Part shown: in pieces, positions 2,436 to 9,323 of the stretch
How the letters are laid out: every line of letters starts with the position of its first letter
How positions within the stretch are numbered: position 1 is the first letter of the stretch
Assembly: GCA_024860865.1 (NCBI GenBank)
Contig: JACRDV010000149.1
Span: 1-9,323 of the forward strand
Origin: JACRDV01 sp024860865 [NCBI: Methanobacteriota archaeon]
GTDB lineage: Archaea > JACRDV01
Direction of reading: 5' to 3'
Length of the DNA stretch: 9,323 bases
Position numbers and translations under genes: made by a program
The notes under the pieces: model-generated
Seen by the model: only the letters and a program-made list of their open reading frames with translations
Told to the model about the DNA's origin: nothing
Databases searched by the model: none

Positions 2436-2996
2436 TCAATGTGTTACTGCTCCAAATGTAATAGCAGTTAACATTCCGGCAGAAAACGCTATGCCAATGC
2501 ACAAAAGTGCATAAATTATATGATTTAGTTCCATGAATGATACGCTGAGATTCGCCTCATCTTGTTTTTGCCCTTGAGTAACTTTTGCAGTAAATCTTAC
2601 TCCGCCCCAGTAGGCTTGGCTATTAATTTGAATTTTTCCAGAATAAACTCCAGGTTGACCTTCTGTTAGTTGTGCTGAAACTTTTTCTGGATTTCCTTTA
2701 TATACATCAGCTATCACTACTACGTTTGCACCGCTTACTGGTTCCATCGTCACCTTATCATTTACTGAAACTTTAAAGTCAATAGTGTCTATTGGTTTAT
2801 AGATCAAAACTTTCATATCAATAACTCCAGGAATCAAGGTGTACTTTGCCGTTGGCTTTGGCTCGAATTTTATCGAAAAAACAGTTCCGCCAGCAACGGC
2901 TTCTGGAGCCTCTGTGCCAGTAGCTGAAACTACTGCCGTCATTATAAGAAATATTAAAATTAAAGTAGCAGTTAAGAAACATAATTTCGTTTTCAC
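2436..2996 (-). CDS. Exported FixH/YtkA-like beta-domain protein with C-terminal anchor
   Basis: A 186-residue protein with a signal peptide (residues 1-25, possible cleavage after VVSA), an extracellular beta-rich domain at about 36-155 and a hydrophobic C-terminal anchor at 159-181. The pattern PVSGANVVV (86-94), GVYSG (116-120) and YWGGVRFTAKV (129-139) resembles the fold shared by FixH and YtkA-type domains, though the match is by eye. The GTG start at 2996 lies one base after the TAA of the TauE/SafE gene (TAA-a-GTG), and GAGG within the end of that gene serves as ribosome site, so translation is coupled. It is probably an accessory of the permease, for example an outside-facing substrate or metal-binding subunit (inference). 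No His, Met or Cys cluster supports copper binding. It may instead be a generic Ig-like domain. Confidence 0.8.
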   Translation of the reverse strand: MKTKLCFLTATLILIFLIMTAVVSATGTEAPEAVAGGTVFSIKFEPKPTAKYTLIPGVIDMKVLIYKPIDTIDFKVSVNDKVTMEPVSGANVVVIADVYKGNPEKVSAQLTEGQPGVYSGKIQINSQAYWGGVRFTAKVTQGQKQDEANLSVSFMELNHIIYALLCIGIAFSAGMLTAITFGAVTH

Positions 2997-2997
2997 T

Positions 2998-4032
2998 TTA
3001 CTTCCTCATTTTCTTAGGTTTAAATATAGTTACCAATGCAAATATCAGCACGCCTCCTGAAACAACAAGAACTGCAACAAGCAATCCAAGCCCTATAGAG
3101 GCTGCGATAGCTAAAGGAACTACCCTCATTAGTTGTGCCACGTCTACAATCATTTTCATTGCAACTATCAGCACAATTCCACCGAATATCATTCGCAATC
3201 TTGGTCCTTTGATGTACTTGGTAGCTTTAGCTCCAATTTGTGCTCCGATAGTTGTACCAATAAACATAATAACAAGCAAATAAAGGTCAACGTTGCCACT
3301 AATCGCTTGCATGAGAGAGGCGTTTGTAGCAGTAAAAACCATTTGGAAAAGATCAGTTCCAACCGCAATAACTACAGGTAGACCGAGGCCATAAACTAAT
3401 GCTGGAGTCATTAAAAAACCTCCGCCGACCCCCATAAATCCAGAAAGAATACCGACCAAAAATCCTAAGCCTACCGCAAAAATCGCTGGAACTGAAACCT
3501 CAGCTTTTTCTAAAACTAATTTTGGAGGCAAAGGTAAAGATCGTATAAATCGGCTAACACCAGTTGAGACCTCATCATCTTTTGTTTTAGGTTTTTGTTT
3601 TGAAGCTCTGTAGGACATCCAACCTTCAAGAAATAGAAGAGACCCTAAAAAGGAGAGGATAACCATCCACACGATCTTAGTATAAAGCGTTAGATTTGAT
3701 GCGCCCATAGTCTTCAATGAATTTAATAAATAAACTCCAGTCCAACCCCCAGGAATTGAGCCAATCAAAATTGTTAATCCAAGCTTCCATTCAACATGGC
3801 CAAGTTTGTAGTGAGCAGCTGTTCCAGATGTGGCTGTTGCAACTATTCCAACTAAGTCTGTGCCAGCAGCGACGTTCATAGGTATTCTAAAAATGGAGTT
3901 TAGTAATGGAACCATCAAAAACCCGCCACCAACTCCAACTAAGCCAGCCAAAAAACCAACAAGTAGCCCTATACTAATTACTCCGAAAGGATTGACTTCA
4001 AGGCCAGCCCACGGTAGATACAACTCAAACAA
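2998..4032 (-). CDS. TauE/SafE family anion exporter (permease)
   Basis: A 344-residue permease built of two homologous halves. The family motif G-x-GGGF-x-(M)-x-P occurs at about 34-42 and again at 201-210, and each is followed by GTDL (57-60) or GTDLFQ (225-230). A charged, probably cytoplasmic, loop joins the halves at about 142-181. The start is TTG at 4032: GAGG sits 8 bases before it, an in-frame stop lies three codons further upstream, and the nearby ATG is out of frame. Family members export sulfite, sulfoacetate or related organosulfur anions in bacteria (established); the substrate here cannot be read. It lies 34 bases after a universal stress protein gene and is coupled to the FixH-like gene behind it, suggesting a three-gene operon. 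Confidence 0.92.
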   Translation of the reverse strand: MFELYLPWAGLEVNPFGVISIGLLVGFLAGLVGVGGGFLMVPLLNSIFRIPMNVAAGTDLVGIVATATSGTAAHYKLGHVEWKLGLTILIGSIPGGWTGVYLLNSLKTMGASNLTLYTKIVWMVILSFLGSLLFLEGWMSYRASKQKPKTKDDEVSTGVSRFIRSLPLPPKLVLEKAEVSVPAIFAVGLGFLVGILSGFMGVGGGFLMTPALVYGLGLPVVIAVGTDLFQMVFTATNASLMQAISGNVDLYLLVIMFIGTTIGAQIGAKATKYIKGPRLRMIFGGIVLIVAMKMIVDVAQLMRVVPLAIAASIGLGLLVAVLVVSGGVLIFALVTIFKPKKMRK

Positions 4033-4066
4033 AAAATCATCCTCACTCTAGTTCTAAGAAAACAGT

Positions 4067-4495
4067 TTATCTAATAACTAGCACAGGACACGGAGCGTGC
4101 CTAGTTACCCTATCTGCAACACTGCCGAGCAAGGTATGACTTAATCCTCTTAATCCTCTAGACCCTATAACTATGGCATCGCAAAATGTTTCTTCAGCTT
4201 CTCTAATTATTTCTTCCCATGCTTCGCCTTCCCTGATCTTTGTCATCATTTTAACATCTTCTTTCTCTGCTCTTGCTTTTACATCCGCTAGAATTTGTCT
4301 GCCTTTTTGCCACAGCTCTTTCTCCATGGTATCTCTGACCATCACATGAGTCAAACTCATAGCCCAGTGACTTATATCAACCACATATAAAGCTGTTAAT
4401 TGGGCTCCAAATTTCTTTGCTATTTCAATAGCATAATTTTCAGCTTTTTTTGCACATGAAGAGCCGTCTGTTGCAAGAAGGATTTTTTTATACAT
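4067..4495 (-). CDS. Universal stress protein, ATP-binding type, first gene of the permease operon
   Basis: A single-domain UspA-fold protein of 142 residues. It starts MYKKILLATDGS with the conserved Asp10, has the second strand ALYVVD at about 35-40, and carries the intact nucleotide motif G-2x-G-9x-G-S at Gly111, Gly114 and Gly124-Ser125, then HAPCPVLVIR at the C-terminus. The motif predicts ATP binding and dimer formation (established for the family). It shares an identical AIEIAKKFGAQLTALYVVD stretch with the two lone stress proteins in the window. Position at the head of the TauE/SafE operon recalls TeaD, a stress protein that regulates the TeaABC ectoine transporter in Halomonas; a similar role here is inference. 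The ATG at 4495 has no clear ribosome site. Confidence 0.93.
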   Translation of the reverse strand: MYKKILLATDGSSCAKKAENYAIEIAKKFGAQLTALYVVDISHWAMSLTHVMVRDTMEKELWQKGRQILADVKARAEKEDVKMMTKIREGEAWEEIIREAEETFCDAIVIGSRGLRGLSHTLLGSVADRVTRHAPCPVLVIR

Positions 4496-4600
4496 AATAT
4501 CTGTGTTAAATAGTTAAACTCGACTTAAATCTTTTTAACTAATAAAAATAGAATTTTGAATTCAATTTATTTCAAAATACATGAGAGTTTTCTAACAAAT
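4496..4600 (-). promoter_or_regulatory. Promoter region of the stress protein-permease operon
   Basis: Read on the minus strand, a TTTAAG tract lies about 29-34 bases before the ATG at 4495 and could be a weak TATA box. An inverted repeat ATTTTGAA/TTCAAAAT stands at 4553-4560/4571-4578; its right arm extends to TTTCAAAAT, which also occurs upstream of the other two minus-strand stress protein genes. Assigned by eye. Confidence 0.35.
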
Positions 4601-4637
4601 AATAAAAAAATTTCACTAGTAAACCTTTACTAGTGAA
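4601..4637 (-). terminator. Strong intrinsic-type terminator hairpin
   Basis: A perfect 12-base-pair inverted repeat (TTCACTAGTAAA at 4612-4623, its complement at 4626-4637) is separated by only two bases. On the minus strand the stem is followed at once by A and seven Ts (4610-4604). It begins 25 bases after the stop codon of the stress protein gene at 4663-5187, so it looks like a classical stem-plus-T-run terminator for that gene. Such hairpins are less usual in archaea, where T-runs alone often suffice. Confidence 0.75.
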
Positions 4638-4662
4638 GTCTCATATCGTATTATTTTAGAAT

Positions 4663-5187
4663 TCAGTGCGATACTATTTGTTGAATTGAAGGCGTACTTT
4701 CAGGATGCGAAGGTCTCTTGATGCCTCCTAATAGAGGTCTAACTACAAATACTGGACAGTGTGCATGCGTAAGTACATTTTTAGAAACGCTGCCTAGCAA
4801 GACTCGACTTATACCCTTACGACTGTTTGATCCGACAACTACTAGATCATACTTGCCTACTTTAGCTTCTTTGACAATTTCTTCCCATGGATTTCCTTTT
4901 CTGACCTTGGTTTCAATTTGAATGCCTTCTTTTTCTGCCTTCTCTTTTAGATCCATTAAAAGTTCTTGACTTCTCTCTATCGTTACTTGTTCTAGATATT
5001 CATCAAACGATTGCATTTTATCGTCTTTAATCACTGGGGTAGTTATCTTATACGAACGAAAAATTAGATCAACTACGTATAAAGCTGTTAATTGAGCTCC
5101 AAATTTCTTTGCAATTTCAATTGCCTGTTTCTCCGCTTCTTTTGCGCTTTGGGAACCATCGGTTGCAATTAATATTTTCTTGAACGT
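4663..5187 (-). CDS. Universal stress protein with altered ATP motif; probable ACG start
   Basis: A UspA-fold protein, 174 residues if translation starts at ACG 5187. That codon falls exactly where its relatives have ATG (T-F-K-K-I-L against M-Y-K-K-I-L) and 7 bases after AGGAGG (5200-5195), the same spacing as in the paralogue at 8039. An in-frame TTG at 5226 would give 13 more residues but would place the ribosome site inside the gene. Asp10 is kept. The nucleotide motif reads G-S-N-S-x(9)-G-S (Gly119, Ser122, Gly132-Ser133), so the second Gly is Ser. After CPVFVVR comes a 24-residue tail rich in Pro, Ser and His, absent from the operon-linked stress proteins. It is monocistronic, bounded by its own promoter and a hairpin terminator. 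ATP binding is uncertain. Confidence 0.88.
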   Translation of the reverse strand, partial: TFKKILIATDGSQSAKEAEKQAIEIAKKFGAQLTALYVVDLIFRSYKITTPVIKDDKMQSFDEYLEQVTIERSQELLMDLKEKAEKEGIQIETKVRKGNPWEEIVKEAKVGKYDLVVVGSNSRKGISRVLLGSVSKNVLTHAHCPVFVVRPLLGGIKRPSHPESTPSIQQIVSH

Positions 5188-5604
5188 AAGAACGCCTCCT
5201 TTTTTTAAAATATTATAATGTAACAAACATTATTAAGGGATTTTTCAAAATTAGATTAAACTAAACTACTTAAAAAGGAACAATTAATTTAAAATTGTTT
5301 TAAAATTAGTTTAATGAGTTTCCCAAACTTATTTATAATCTAGAACTTTACACCAAATTTTTTTGAACGAGAAGATTAGAATCAAAAATGCTAGCCTAGA
5401 ATTTTGTTGTTTCAAATCTGAAAATAATTGATTTAAAAAATTTATTTATTTTAATAATTAGCAAAAAATTAAAAATTTAAGTCGATTTTTCCGATTTTTC
5501 TTCGAAATCTTTTTATAGAGGCAACATCTTAACCGCGCTAATCTGATAGTAATTTTACATTAATTTATAATTAAATTATAACTAATTAAAAAAGAGGGCT
5601 AAAA
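5188..5604. promoter_or_regulatory. 417-base divergent intergenic region with palindromes and promoters
   Basis: No gene is seen. For the minus-strand stress protein, AGGAGG lies at 5195-5200 and a conserved element (TAAGGGA then TTTTTCAAAATTA, 5234-5253) is shared with the region before the gene at 8039. An inverted repeat ATTAAACTAA/TTAGTTTAAT at 5255-5264/5306-5315 encloses a second one, AACAATT/AATTGTT, at 5279-5285/5293-5299. For the plus-strand operon, a TATA-like TTTTTATA at 5510-5517 follows a CGAAA stretch; it would give a leader of about 65 bases. That leader holds the palindrome TTATAATT-A-AATTATAA (5565-5581) and the ribosome site GAGGG (5594-5598). The palindromes are A+T-only or nearly so and may partly be chance. 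Confidence 0.5.
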
Positions 5605-5865
5605 ATGCCATTTAATTCGAAAGGGATGATAACCGCTCTTTCGCTCGCCCTTGCTACTATTGTCGCTTATTGGTTGGCTATCACTAAGGTAGGCGTAATT
5701 GAACGACTGTTTAGTGAAAACAAACTTGGCTATGCTGTATTATGTGTTAGCACTATGGCTATCTGTGGCACTCTACTTGGATTTTTTGCAGACTCCATAA
5801 CGAATTTACTAGGATGGAAAATAGAGAGAGTAGAAGAAGCCGAGGTAGAAAGACTGGAAGAGTAG
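5605..5865 (+). CDS. Small two-helix membrane protein, first gene of the second TauE/SafE operon
   Basis: An 86-residue protein with two hydrophobic helices at about residues 8-26 and 41-61 and a strongly acidic C-terminal tail from 73 (RVEEAEVERLEE). The ATG at 5605 follows GAGGG by 6 bases, a strong site. It ends 19 bases before the TauE/SafE gene and so is almost certainly co-transcribed with it. I do not recognise the family. Its place corresponds to an accessory subunit: the other TauE/SafE operon has a FixH-like anchored protein instead. A small partner that stabilises or gates the permease is inference; the acidic tail could be a docking site for the stress protein. Confidence 0.8.
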   Translation: MPFNSKGMITALSLALATIVAYWLAITKVGVIERLFSENKLGYAVLCVSTMAICGTLLGFFADSITNLLGWKIERVEEAEVERLEE

Positions 5866-5884
5866 AGTCAATTTAGGTGAGGAT

Positions 5885-6931
5885 ATGTATTTCCCATTTT
5901 CAGGTGTTGAATTTCCATTGTGGTATCTTCTTTTAATCGGCTTTACTGTCGGAGTTTGTGGCGGATTTTTCGGATTCGGCGGAGGATTTATGGTAACACC
6001 TTCTCTTGCTATCTTTGGATTTCCATATGCATTTGCAGCTGGCACAGATCTTCAACACATAGCTGGCAAGTCTATTATAGCAACTATAAGGCACAGAGAA
6101 TTAGGCAATGTTGATTTTAAGCTTGGATTATTATTGTTGGCTGGAACTGTGCCTGGAGTAGAACTTGGGCACACGATAGTTGAATATCTTAAGTCCATAG
6201 GTAAGGAAGTGTACATGTTGTTAGTTTGTTTCATAGTTCTCAGCTGTATATCCGGTTATATGCTCTACGAACTTTCTAAAGTGAGGAGGTTTATAAAAGA
6301 AAAGGGAATAATAGGTAAGGACGTGGTACCGAGCAAACTCCCACAGAGGATACAGAATATTAAAGTTCCACCTATGATATTACTGCAAGCAACAAAAGTC
6401 ACGATTTCTCTTTGGATCATAATTGCTATAGCTTTCCCTGTTGGTCTTTTAGCTGGATTGCTTGGTGCTGGTGGCGGTTTCATTATGGTGCCATCATTGA
6501 TTTATATCATTGGAGCTCCAACTACTGTAGCAGTTGGAACTGATCTTTTTCAAGTTATGTTTACAGCTGCTTATGGCGGTTTAACATATGCGCTTTCAGG
6601 ACACGTTGATATACTAGCAGCCATATTGATGCTAGCCGTAGCCGCGGTTGGTGCACAAATAGGTTCAATTGCAACGGCGTATGTGAGAGGTATATCCATC
6701 AGGTATTTGTTCTCTATAATGATATTCTCGGCAGGTCTAGGGGCGCTCCTTAGGTTTATAGCATCTCCGGAAACATACGGAATTGCTGTGCTTCAAAATG
6801 TCGCTTTGGTGCTCGTACTAGGCGCTGCTCTCATTCTGTGCATAGTGATAATAATATATTTGGCAAAAGGTATAACAGCTGCGCGTGAAAAGCAAAGAAA
6901 AGCAGAAGTTAAAAGTCAATCAACACGGTGA
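5885..6931 (+). CDS. Second TauE/SafE family anion exporter (permease)
   Basis: A 348-residue permease with the same two-half design as the gene at 2998-4032. The first half has GGFFGFGGGFMVTP (26-39) and GTDL (53-56); the second has GLLGAGGGFIMVP (191-203) and GTDLFQ (218-223). A charged loop of about 132-162 joins them and ends VPP, as in the paralogue. A basic tail closes the protein, which fits cytoplasmic C-terminal exposure. The ATG at 5885 is preceded by GGTGAGG at 5876-5882. Apart from the motifs the two permeases differ considerably, so they may carry different substrates or face different partners. Export of sulfite or organosulfonates is the family precedent; nothing in this window (no sulfite or taurine metabolism gene) confirms it. 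Confidence 0.93.
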   Translation: MYFPFSGVEFPLWYLLLIGFTVGVCGGFFGFGGGFMVTPSLAIFGFPYAFAAGTDLQHIAGKSIIATIRHRELGNVDFKLGLLLLAGTVPGVELGHTIVEYLKSIGKEVYMLLVCFIVLSCISGYMLYELSKVRRFIKEKGIIGKDVVPSKLPQRIQNIKVPPMILLQATKVTISLWIIIAIAFPVGLLAGLLGAGGGFIMVPSLIYIIGAPTTVAVGTDLFQVMFTAAYGGLTYALSGHVDILAAILMLAVAAVGAQIGSIATAYVRGISIRYLFSIMIFSAGLGALLRFIASPETYGIAVLQNVALVLVLGAALILCIVIIIYLAKGITAAREKQRKAEVKSQSTR

Positions 6932-6960
6932 AAAGAAAATGCAAAAACTTGAGTGTTTGT

Positions 6961-7386
6961 ATGTTCAAGAAGATTTTAATTCCAACCGATGGTTCTGTTT
7001 CTGCTGAAAAAGCTATTGAAGTAGCTGCAGACTTGGCTAAGAAATATGATGCTAAGCTGACGATTTTGCATGTCTTACCTCTTCGGGCCAGTATATCCCC
7101 GATAGGCCCACTCGCTTTAGGAGAAGTTATGAAAAAGCTTCAAGCGGAGGCAGATAAGCATATTAGAAGCGGAAAAGAAATTGCTGATAAAGCAGGGATC
7201 GTAGCTGAGACTAAGACTATAGTTGGACTTCCTGCAATAACTATTCTCGAAGAAGCAGAGAAAGGCGAGTATAATCTCATTGTAATGGGGACTCGAGGTT
7301 TGAGTGCAGTAGCTAGGTTTGCACTAGGGAGTGTTAGTGATAAAGTAGTTCGACACGCTCCATGTCCTGTTATGCTAATTAGATGA
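6961..7386 (+). CDS. Universal stress protein, ATP-binding type, last gene of the second permease operon
   Basis: A 141-residue UspA-fold protein with Asp10 in LIPTDGS and an intact G-2x-G-9x-G-S motif (Gly110, Gly113, Gly123-Ser124), ending HAPCPVMLIR. I place the start at ATG 6961 because MFKKILIPTDGS aligns with the start of the other family members; a GTG at 6928, overlapping the permease stop (GTGA), would add 11 residues with no counterpart. The GTGA overlap and the absence of a promoter indicate translation from the permease mRNA. It is the most divergent of the four stress proteins here: its first helix reads AADLAKKYDAKLTILHV rather than the AIEIAKKFGAQLTALYV of the other three, so it did not arise by the same recent duplication. 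Confidence 0.92.
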   Translation: MFKKILIPTDGSVSAEKAIEVAADLAKKYDAKLTILHVLPLRASISPIGPLALGEVMKKLQAEADKHIRSGKEIADKAGIVAETKTIVGLPAITILEEAEKGEYNLIVMGTRGLSAVARFALGSVSDKVVRHAPCPVMLIR

Positions 7387-7532: not shown

Positions 7533-8039
7533 CTATCCTGACTTCACTGGTGATACAATAGCGCTTGGTATTACTCTTGGCCTCTCCGCGATTTCTGGTA
7601 GCGATCTCGCTATGAGTACTGGGCAACGCGCATTAGCAAGAACTCTCTCGGCGACACTTCCTAAGAAAGACAACATACCCTTACGGCTAGCTGACCCAAT
7701 CACTAGTAAGCTGTATTTGTTTACTTTAGTTTCTTTAACTATTTCTTCCCATGGATTTCCTTTTCTGACCTTGGTTTCAATTTGGATGCTTTCTTTTTCA
7801 GCTTTCGATTTAATGTCCTCCAAAATTTCTTTGCTTTTCTGTGTAAGCTCTCGTTCTAAAGCATATACGGCTCCTAATGGGATAGTTATAGTAGCCTCGT
7901 ATGTACGAATTAGTTGTTGATCTACCACATATAAAGCTGTTAATTGAGCTCCAAATTTCTTTGCAATTTCAATAGCTTGCTCTTCTGCCTTCTTTGCACC
8001 AGTTGACCCATCTGTTGCAACCAAAATTTTGTTATACAT
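7533..8039 (-). CDS. Universal stress protein with one-residue deletion in the ATP motif
   Basis: A UspA-fold protein of 168 residues. The ATG at 8039 follows AGGAGGTG with 7 bases between GGAGG and ATG. Asp10 is present, but the nucleotide motif is G-S-A-S-x(8)-G-S (Gly115, Ser118, Gly127-Ser128): the second Gly is Ser and one residue is missing from the usual nine-residue spacer, so canonical ATP binding is doubtful. Residues 146-168 form a Pro-rich tail after CPVLIAR. It is the sister of the protein at 4663-5187: both have RKGNPWEEIVKE and two 44-base stretches of identical DNA. It appears monocistronic with its own promoter and converges on the second permease operon. Confidence 0.92.
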   Translation of the reverse strand: MYNKILVATDGSTGAKKAEEQAIEIAKKFGAQLTALYVVDQQLIRTYEATITIPLGAVYALERELTQKSKEILEDIKSKAEKESIQIETKVRKGNPWEEIVKETKVNKYSLLVIGSASRKGMLSFLGSVAERVLANARCPVLIARSLPEIAERPRVIPSAIVSPVKSG

Positions 8040-8349
8040 TAAAACACCTCCTAAAGTTATTTTTATAATAATCTATAACGGCCCTCTATAAGGGAATTTT
8101 TCAAAATTAAGTAAAAATTAATATCAAAATAATGTAAATTTATAATAAAATTATTATAAATTAATTATAACTAGTTATAAATTAGTACAAAATTAGTTAT
8201 TAATTAATATAAAATTAATACAAATTCAAATTTTTGCTATTATTTTAAAAATTGGCCTAAAAATTTGAAATTAATCAAAAAGATATATCATAAGTGTATC
8301 TTTTACCATTATAAAATTACTATTATTAAAACCTCGAAAAGTGGCCTTT
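8040..8349. promoter_or_regulatory. Divergent A+T-rich region with palindromes between stress protein and regulator
   Basis: No gene is seen. Next to the stress protein start are the ribosome site AGGAGG (8047-8052) and the element shared with the 5187 gene (8089-8109), which contains the palindrome AATTTT-TC-AAAATT, on the plus strand, at 8096-8109. Further on stand TTATAATA/TATTATAA (8140-8147/8152-8159) and the 16-base perfect palindrome TTATAACTAGTTATAA (8165-8180), in a run of A+T-rich, weakly repetitive sequence to about 8225. Before the regulator gene a dyad AAAAGATA/TATCTTTT (8278-8285/8297-8304) abuts a TATA-like ATTATAAAATTA (8308-8319). Confidence 0.5.
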
Positions 8350-8634
8350 ATGAAACATCTGCTTTGGTGGTTATTCGTTGTTTCTCGGGGCAGCGGCACT
8401 CGAGTAGAAATAGTACGTGCCTTAAAAGAAAGGCCGTATAATGCAAATCAACTGGCGGAGTTACTCAATTTGGGTTACAGAACTATTCGCCACCACCTAA
8501 AAGTTCTAGAGGATAATGGTATAATAGAGACAGAGGGGAGCAGATACGGCATTATGTATTTTTTGTCTTCAGAGATGGAACAAAATTACGCCTTATTTGA
8601 GGATATATCGAAAAAAAGAGAAAAAAATAAGTGA
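8350..8634 (+). CDS. Second ArsR-like winged helix-turn-helix regulator
   Basis: A 94-residue wHTH protein when started at ATG 8350, which aligns without gaps to the start of the paralogue at 968 (LLWWLF against LFWWIF). A GTG at 8341 would add three residues and, with a TATA-like box centred near 8313, could be a leaderless start, so the choice is open. The helix-turn-helix is at about 30-56 (YNANQLAELLNLGYRTIRHHLKVLE), followed by a wing and YFLSSEME. The gene overlaps the upstream part of the next gene: its TGA lies in GTGAGGG, which acts as that gene's ribosome site, so the two are translationally coupled. Autoregulation through the dyad at 8278-8304 is plausible. The tail is very Lys-rich. 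Confidence 0.88.
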   Translation: MKHLLWWLFVVSRGSGTRVEIVRALKERPYNANQLAELLNLGYRTIRHHLKVLEDNGIIETEGSRYGIMYFLSSEMEQNYALFEDISKKREKNK

Positions 8635-8645
8635 GGGATCTAAAT

Positions 8646-8939
8646 ATGAGTATGCTTACTACAATTTACGGCATAGTTATACTTGCGATAAACGCTGGTT
8701 TTTTAATCGCTCTGCTTTTCTTGCTCTTTAGTTCTTATCGAAAAATGCGGTCAACATTTACCTTGGCTATGATTCTATTCGCTCTTGTACTTTTAATGAA
8801 AGCAATTGCTAAAGAAGGTTTATATATCGCAGTATTCCTTGGCAAATCTGACATAGGCTTATTTTATGATTATAACGTGGTCACTGAGACTACCGAATTT
8901 GTTGCTCTAGCTATTCTGCTTTATCTGATGACTCGATAA
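8646..8939 (+). CDS. Second small three-helix membrane protein coupled to the regulator
   Basis: A 97-residue membrane protein, paralogue of the one at 333-641. Hydrophobic helices are at about 8-28, 38-54 and 82-95, with the basic loop SYRKMRS (30-36) and the shared ending LYLMTR. I take ATG 8646, which follows GAGGG (8633-8637) by 8 bases; GTG 8631 would lie within that ribosome site, and ATG 8652 is a further alternative. Here the membrane gene follows its regulator in one operon, whereas the 333/968 pair is divergent. The strict pairing in two arrangements supports a functional unit; role unknown. Confidence 0.85.
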   Translation: MSMLTTIYGIVILAINAGFLIALLFLLFSSYRKMRSTFTLAMILFALVLLMKAIAKEGLYIAVFLGKSDIGLFYDYNVVTETTEFVALAILLYLMTR

Positions 8940-9039: not shown

Positions 9040-9323
9040 ATGTTTAAACGTATCCCTTTTGGGATTCCCGGTATCGATGAACTAACAAATGGTGGAATTC
9101 CGTTACCTTCTGCGATTTTGCTTTTAGGTGATCCAGGTACTGGGAAAAGCGTAATTACACAACAATTTATTTGGGAAGGCCTTAGACTTGGGCAGCCAGG
9201 AATTTACTTTTGCGTTGATCATTCTCCTCAAAGCGTTAGAGAAAACATGGCATCTTTTGGTTGGAATGTAAAACCATATGAAGATAAAGAAGAGCTGATT
9301 TTAGTAGATGCATTCTTGGGTCG
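9040..9323 (+). CDS. RAD55/KaiC-like RecA-superfamily ATPase (3' truncated)
   Basis: The first 94 residues of a RecA-fold ATPase are present; the gene runs off the window. It begins with the KaiC-type lead G-(I/P)-x-G-(I/L)-DEL-x-x-GGIP (8-21), then strand AILLLG and the Walker A motif GDPGTGKS (30-37), helix VITQQFIWEGL, and GIYFCVDHSPQSVRENM, where bacterial KaiC and its relatives have a (T/S)-x-E-E. Here that position reads CVDHSP, so the usual Glu pair is absent. Walker B is approached at ILVDAF but the remainder is outside. Archaeal proteins of this type bind ATP and many act in signalling; no direct link to the upstream genes is shown. It has its own likely promoter. Confidence 0.9.
   Translation, partial: MFKRIPFGIPGIDELTNGGIPLPSAILLLGDPGTGKSVITQQFIWEGLRLGQPGIYFCVDHSPQSVRENMASFGWNVKPYEDKEELILVDAFLG

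Follow-up and report, generated by a model that had tools for sequence, protein, structure and literature searches.

The archaeal contig JACRDV010000149.1 (C111 in our numbering) belongs to a genome of 1.54 Mb that is 92% complete, and its complete 9323 bases are the stretch of DNA analyzed here, referred to below as the window. It contains two operons, one on each strand, in which a permease of the TauE/SafE family (TSUP) is encoded together with a universal stress protein (Usp) and a membrane protein (Table 1). The intergenic gaps of the minus-strand operon, 34 nt and 1 nt by the coordinates, are operon-like. The spacing is operon-like on the plus strand too: a gap of 19 nt separates the first two genes, and the junction with the Usp gene is a 4-nt overlap if translation starts at the GTG at 6928, or a gap of 29 nt if it starts at the ATG at 6961. 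A Pfam scan of ten window proteins assigned both permeases to PF01925 with 177 and 154 bits (cut-off 32.6 bits) and four Usps to PF00582 with 110–135 bits (cut-off 24 bits), the operon Usps scoring 135 and 132. An initial annotation, made from the sequence alone, had read the plus operon as two-helix protein, permease and stress protein, and the gene coordinates and Pfam scores agree with this. Its order for the minus operon (stress protein, permease, exported protein) also stands, but the FixH-like label given to the exported protein has to be dropped, as no FixH model matched it at E ≤ 1 in the Pfam scan. The two stress proteins it reported are indeed present as the operon pair, while the total in the window is four, with an extra minus-strand gene on either side of the plus operon. 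The ATP motif of Usps, which we take to be G-2x-G-9x-G(S/T), is complete in both operon Usps, as annotated, and there takes the form G-2x-G-9x-G(S); in the flanking Usps at 4663–5226 and 7533–8039 the complete motif is absent. The pattern agrees with the table in the accessible part of a review of the family (PMC3673472).

Table 1. Genes of the two TauE/Usp operons and the flanking Usp genes in the window
Feature	Coordinates	Strand	Length	Remarks
Exported membrane-anchored protein, minus operon	2436..2996	-	186 aa	Signal-like N-terminus, beta-rich middle, C-terminal helix at about 158-185
TauE/SafE permease, minus operon	2998..4032	-	344 aa	PF01925, E 6.9e-52
Usp, minus operon	4067..4495	-	142 aa	PF00582, E 3.2e-39; complete ATP motif GSRGLRGLSHTLLGS
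Flanking Usp	4663..5226	-	187 aa as listed (TTG start)	Incomplete ATP motif; oriented divergently to the plus operon
Small two-helix membrane partner, plus operon	5605..5865	+	86 aa	Tail acidic; distantly related to DVU0150-like small proteins
TauE/SafE permease, plus operon	5885..6931	+	348 aa	Long form; PF01925, E 6.2e-45
Usp, plus operon	6928..7386	+	152 aa (141 aa from ATG 6961)	PF00582, E 3.3e-38; complete ATP motif GTRGLSAVARFALGS
Flanking Usp	7533..8039	-	168 aa	ATP motif incomplete

The initial annotation took the repeated linkage of the two families as a sign that the stress protein is a working part of the transporter. Co-occurrence of TauE/SafE and Usp genes across archaea proves to be above chance. 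We searched 31 archaeal genomes, each family being represented by one or two of them, with the general Pfam models for TauE and Usp; the count excludes three TauE rows and one Usp row that scored under the Pfam cut-off and treats one TauE match split in two pieces as a single match. A Usp gene lies within 1.5 kb of 12 of the 33 TauE genes, against 0.55 expected at random placement (P = 3e-14). Removal of the window's own genome leaves nine of 28 TauE genes linked (0.41 expected), and further removal of G001 and G023, from the phylum with fused genes described below, leaves four of 21 (0.18 expected, P = 2.5e-5). MFS transporters served as a control: among the matches listed in Usp-bearing genomes, with split matches joined, only two of 104 lie near a Usp, compared with 12 of 28 TauE genes in Usp-bearing genomes (Fisher P = 6e-8). 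Position within the locus provides another control. We fetched 80 named loci by TauE similarity and scanned them with a Usp profile built from the window and the fetched Usps rather than from Pfam; a Usp occurs somewhere in the flanks of 24 of them. With 79 loci counted (L122 was left out), the density of Usps amounts to 0.26 per kb at distances of up to 300 nt from TauE and to approximately 0.03 per kb at 1.5–5 kb (P = 7e-7). These loci, together with the fusion-phylum scan, the eight-genome regions and the bacterial-phylum sample considered below, came from searches with a profile, A1, built from five TauE proteins that were all Usp-linked or fused.

The association goes as far as a single polypeptide in one archaeal phylum. 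Genome G023 encodes TauE and two Usp domains in one open frame of 662 residues. A search of 23 genomes of this phylum yielded 21 matches to long-form TauE at a threshold of E ≤ 2e-72. Nine of these are fused, in 11 cases a Usp gene follows immediately downstream, and the remaining match is truncated by the end of its contig. The TauE–Usp–Usp fusions are 612–665 residues long and occur in nine of the 23 genomes, with all nine (L036 from G023 and eight others) confirmed by Pfam. Weaker TauE matches in the same phylum include loci with no Usp in reach (e.g. L140). With the TauE half of L036, the plus-operon TauE shares 44% identity, and in a TauE tree it falls with all six of the fusions included on one branch of 29 rows, at a support of 91%, which is below the tool's starred level. 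Another kind of fusion is present at L131, where a 369-residue protein combines an N-terminal Usp domain (E 1.5e-9) with the two-helix membrane partner at its C-terminus and is followed by TauE and Usp. Upstream partners of about 190–240 amino acids at eight other loci (L031, L075, L076, L085, L125, L130, L079 and L087) carry an extra N-terminal domain of approximately 130 residues, which may be a degenerate Usp domain. Profile comparison of this domain gave a weak result (hhalign probability 14%, P = 0.0019), and Pfam, run on L031, L076, L085, L079 and L087, returned a Usp match only in L079, at E 0.0013 and below the cut-off. Because this evidence is weak, we claim the fusion of Usp with the partner for L131 only. 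The fusion phylum is very probably Hydrothermarchaeota, judging from the identical partner tails shown for L126 and L076 (Candidatus Pyrohabitans jungbluthii) and from the phylum name carried by L085.

The arrangement of the plus operon is also found in bacteria. Small partner, TauE and Usp follow one another in metagenome-assembled genomes of Deltaproteobacteria (L056, L059, L062 and L063) and in Desulfosporosinus lacus (L089). Membrane partner, TauE and Usp, as combined in the plus operon, make up a minimal module that is present in both domains. Junctions between TauE and Usp on the same strand are short or overlapping in several phyla. From eight genomes that were picked for holding Usp-linked TauE, 20 of 31 TauE matches were taken as regions, and 15 of these 20 contain a Usp. 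A broader sample covered 59 genomes of one bacterial phylum, 24 of which have a TauE match at E ≤ 1e-60. Among 29 newly fetched loci (of 58 matches; L212 is the same gene as L169 of the eight-genome set), a Usp is found in the flanks of ten, and a match to the partner-helix profile in 17, namely 16 small proteins and one Alph_Pro_TM protein (L204). We placed 121 TauE sequences in a tree by a quick method that leaves many unresolved forks and long branches; near-identical sequences were collapsed and 14 contig-edge TauE were left out. The Usp label, carried by 57 of the 121, requires 23 changes on this tree as opposed to 40.5 in shuffles, and the well-supported branches force at least 17. These changes, together with the absences counted below, indicate that Usp is a frequent partner of TauE, repeatedly gained or lost, and not an obligatory one.

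The window's own genome holds five TauE matches and eleven Usp matches in its 1.54 Mb. The initial annotation had described two TauE operons with a stress protein, and both exist; a third, on contig C7 of the same genome, begins with a Usp gene, followed by genes for a two-helix protein of 76 amino acids, TauE and a second Usp. On the tree, each of the three TauE linked to a Usp in this genome sits on a different branch, and their presence is therefore not accounted for by local duplication of a single operon. The nearest fetched relatives of the minus-operon TauE are L102 and L090, on a branch with TauE/Alph_Pro_TM loci (support 87). No Usp match is present on contig C28, which holds the fourth TauE. 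The TauE on contig C87 (L005) is a fragment of about 116 amino acids, perhaps a decayed copy; by eye, the truncated gene lies among short genes resembling toxin-antitoxin genes. Identity between the two flanking Usps of the window is 58%, and the minus-operon Usp is 48–52% identical to them.

Small proteins with one or two helices are located directly upstream of many long-form TauE genes. Those of L044 and L062 match NF040783, the DVU0150 family, at E 4e-17 and 6e-13, and the 86-aa window protein matches it at E 1.1e-4 (22.5 bits); the curated cut-off of 70 bits is reached by none of the proteins scanned. The 86-aa protein is found with more confidence (E 1.2e-11) by a partner-helix profile that we built from small proteins upstream of TauE with the window left out. 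For the exported 186-aa protein of the minus operon, the matches to MG2 (E 0.0015) and YtkA (E 0.012) are below threshold, PF09608 (Alph_Pro_TM) gives no match at E ≤ 1, and among 149 genomes a convincing E-value was obtained for the window itself only, with four more matches at E 7e-4 to 6e-3. A single-sequence model of the protein has low confidence (pLDDT 50) and is for that reason too poor for a structure search. The position and layout of the protein nevertheless resemble those of Alph_Pro_TM proteins. In bacteria, the order Usp, TauE, Alph_Pro_TM occurs at L180, L182, L185 and L207, and the order TauE, Alph_Pro_TM, Usp at L178, L179, L181 and L102, with L090 similar; Alph_Pro_TM was confirmed by Pfam for L102 and L180 and called elsewhere by a profile built in this analysis. 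The minus operon thus has counterparts, and its combination of TauE, Usp and exported protein is not unique.

The profile of the small-partner helix and that of the C-terminal Alph_Pro_TM helix find each other (best E 4e-4 and 1.8e-5), which suggests that small partners and Alph_Pro_TM proteins carry one and the same partner helix. The exported 186-aa protein, named in advance as a candidate, is the top open reading frame (ORF) outside the known partners in a search with the Alph_Pro_TM helix profile, yet only at E 0.2 among 7026 ORFs; the small-partner profile gives it E 0.85, and it is not the best ORF there. This weak resemblance is suggestive of a shared Alph_Pro_TM helix and is not proof. 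The membrane partners of the two operons, originally said to be different, may be variants of one partner helix, with the exported protein as the weak side of the comparison.

The predicted structure of the plus-operon TauE is of good quality (pLDDT 91.4, pTM 0.89), with a central loop at approximately 141–175 and a long C-terminal helix at 301–347. Under the positive-inside rule, positive charge is expected on the cytosolic side of a membrane protein. The central loop and the C-terminus each contain seven lysine or arginine and two aspartate or glutamate residues, and no lysine or arginine is found in the N-terminus and two opposite loops; by this rule the loop and C-terminus of the model are probably both cytosolic. 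A cytosolic C-terminus fits the fusion of Usp domains at this end of TauE. A PDB sequence search with the TauE profile found no relative (one chance-level match at E 0.52), and Foldseek of the model against the PDB gave nothing at E ≤ 0.001. Alignment with VIA-align 2 of the chains ranked by Foldseek singled out the undecaprenyl-pyrophosphate phosphatase BacA (5oon, 6fmt), with Z 13.6 over 240 residues, a root-mean-square deviation of 3.9 and 12% identity; Z drops to 6.3 at the next unrelated match. Foldseek itself ranks BacA weakly (6fmt, E 0.31). The modeled TauE may share the BacA fold, a likeness for which a literature search found nothing.

On the side of the stress protein, the PDB relatives of the plus-operon Usp include 3loq and TeaD (3hgm), and TeaD is a sequence relative of both operon Usps. 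At least one complete ATP motif is kept in 25 of 38 adjacent or fused Usp ORFs.

The genome offers some indication of what might be transported. Contig C132 (L218) carries dsrA (DsrA score 494 bits) and a gene resembling dsrB; upstream of them, by eye, is a TusA-like gene. No match to aprA was found in the genome, an absence that is not proven because the genome is 92% complete. By this gene content, the archaeon may reduce sulfite rather than sulfate, and dsrAB without detectable aprA makes sulfite a reasonable first substrate to consider. Our guess, from the family name and these genes, is that the substrate would be a small sulfur oxyanion such as sulfite. The anion export envisaged by the initial annotation is a putative function taken from the family name alone.

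Our proposal is that each operon would encode a membrane complex built on the TauE/SafE permease. The small or exported protein would contribute one partner transmembrane helix, and the Usp, on the cytosolic face, would bind the long cytosolic loop and the C-terminal helix of the permease. On balance we think it probable that the Usp serves a complex of TauE permease and partner helix as a regulatory subunit on the cytosolic side. The view that the stress protein is a working part of the transporter has come out well supported, by the linkage, the nine TauE–Usp–Usp fusions, the L131 protein and the positively charged loop and C-terminus of TauE. Contact between Usp and permease is likely, on comparative grounds, where the two are encoded separately. 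The further step, in which nucleotide binding by the Usp would alter transport by analogy with the modulation of TeaABC by TeaD, is less certain, and with it the putative gating by energy state put forward in the initial annotation.

Several observations weigh against a regulatory subunit of this kind. Thirteen of the 38 adjacent or fused Usp ORFs have no complete ATP motif, among them the Usps of all three Usp–TauE–Alph_Pro_TM loci tested, and it is for this reason that ATP-dependent gating is the less certain part of the proposal. Usp is missing from 64 of the 121 TauE of the tree and from 19 of the 29 fetched loci in the sampled bacterial phylum; many long-form TauE of bacteria have a membrane partner without a Usp. 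Searches with A1 favor Usp-linked branches, since the profile was made from Usp-linked or fused TauE. Of 51 Usps counted as linked, ten are encoded on the strand opposite to TauE; eight of these ten come from haloarchaea, where the Usp is divergent from TauE at a distance of 90–925 nt. The operon Usps of the window are closer to Usps of their own genome than to Usps beside foreign TauE; an exchange of the partner, or its local duplication, may lie behind this. Co-evolution of TauE and Usp was considered and not upheld: the distance correlation of r 0.84 (17 pairs) drops to r 0.14 (6 pairs) without close relatives, a value reached in 2363 of 10000 permutations. The loop between transmembrane helices 3 and 4, predicted to lie outside, holds two lysine or arginine residues and one aspartate or glutamate. 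Finally, we asked whether dsrA marks the module in the fusion phylum, and the counts show no clear link: it exceeds the cut-off in eight of 14 genomes with long-form TauE and not in the other six (hand count), and five genomes have dsrA without long-form TauE.

Some of these observations could also be accommodated by co-regulation without contact, in which TauE and Usp would be co-transcribed because both respond to a shared type of stress, such as sulfite or energy stress, while the Usp acts elsewhere. Usps are general stress proteins, many TauE loci do without one, and the divergent haloarchaeal Usp stands outside the operon. We nonetheless regard this explanation as unlikely, though not far-fetched, given the TauE–Usp–Usp fusions in nine genomes, the fusion of Usp with the membrane partner and the short or overlapping same-strand junctions in several phyla. 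The ORFs without a complete motif, to which two of the six distinct fusions examined belong, would suit a Usp that helps to build or assemble the permease complex, or one that senses a ligand other than ATP, such as AMP or c-di-AMP; a Usp domain of KdpD binds c-di-AMP according to the part of the source available (PMC8214093). We consider this quite unlikely in view of the complete motif in both window operon Usps and in the majority of the 38 ORFs. That duplications in a Usp-rich genome placed Usps beside TauE without function is highly improbable: the number of Usp matches in this genome and the similarity of the minus-operon Usp to both flanking Usps would be in keeping with such a local accident, which is largely refuted by linkage above chance without the own genome, the MFS control and the position-within-locus test, and opposed by the same arrangement in other phyla, the fusions and the three TauE branches in one genome.

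A regulatory Usp in a transporter has a precedent in TeaD, an ATP-binding Usp which modulates the activity of the TRAP transporter TeaABC in Halomonas elongata according to the accessible part of the report (PMC9006882). The window operons share with this system a transporter operon with an ATP-motif Usp. They differ in the permease, which belongs to PF01925, none of the ten window proteins scanned having a match to a TRAP family, and in the absence of a visible substrate-binding protein, the partner being a two-helix or exported single-pass protein instead. Fusions of Usps with amino acid permeases and Na+/H+ exchangers are described in the available text of Usp reviews (including PMC3673472). 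Like the archaeal permease–USP–USP proteins with an amino acid permease and the Usp–Na+/H+ exchanger fusions, the TauE fusions unite a transporter and Usp domains in one polypeptide; unlike them, they involve TauE/SafE, which is absent from the portion of the review text consulted, and the same module is also found unfused, in separate genes that include a membrane partner. The closest published remark concerns Tn6050 of Cupriavidus metallidurans, where, in the part of the paper available, a functional linkage is proposed for a module of sulfate permease, UspA and a DksA-like protein (PMC2864759). This too is a sulfur-anion permease beside a Usp, likened here by description only; it differs in having a named sulfate permease and a location on a transposon, and that part of the paper mentions no partner helix protein. 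With respect to the partners, DVU0150–DVU0146 is listed as a sigma54-regulated transport operon in the accessible section of another study (PMC4641369). Small membrane proteins related to the DVU0150 family (NF040783) lie directly upstream of TauE, as the window's 86-aa protein does, the difference being that the scanned proteins stay below the family's cut-off and that the 86-aa protein matches its model at E 1.1e-4 only. The Alph_Pro_TM proteins (PF09608/TIGR02186) beside TauE are exported proteins with a C-terminal helix, in the Usp–TauE–exported protein order of the minus operon, but PF09608 does not match the 186-aa window protein. In a literature search covering mostly open-licence papers, none was found to deal with TauE/TSUP/DUF81 together with Usp as a single system.

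The remaining genes of the window include a VTT/DedA-type membrane protein at 1775–2383 on the plus strand (PF09335, E 5.8e-18) and, at 9040–9323 on the plus strand, the start of a KaiC/RadA-like ATPase gene with a Walker A motif by eye, which is cut by the contig end. Helix-turn-helix (HTH) regulators are encoded at 968–1249, where ArsR-type models match below the cut-off, and at 8341–8634. Membrane proteins of about 100 amino acids, alike by eye, are found around the operons at 333–641 on the minus strand and at 8631–8939. By eye, similar-looking HTH proteins lie near TauE–Usp loci of other archaea (L020, 3136–3420; L039, 2967–3254), and a membrane protein at L031 (75–368) resembles those of about 100 amino acids in the window. 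It is possible that the HTH and small membrane proteins around the operons are regulators of the module.

Universal stress proteins are very common, and few of them have an assigned job. The recurrent presence of a Usp in or beside permeases of one family gives such proteins a directly testable role, that of nucleotide sensing at a membrane anion transporter. The module also suggests a partner for two uncharacterized families, the DVU0150-like and the Alph_Pro_TM proteins, and the natural TauE–Usp–Usp fusions are ready-made single-chain constructs for structural work. A wider and more tentative generalization is that TauE/SafE, partner helix and Usp could form a class of nucleotide-gated transporters across archaea and bacteria, in which DVU0150-like and exported Alph_Pro_TM-like proteins would be alternative carriers of the same helix and the Usp would be a detachable gate, which in one archaeal phylum became joined to the C-terminus of the permease. 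If this holds, the archaeon of the window would run three such systems in parallel, perhaps tying sulfite traffic to its energy state.

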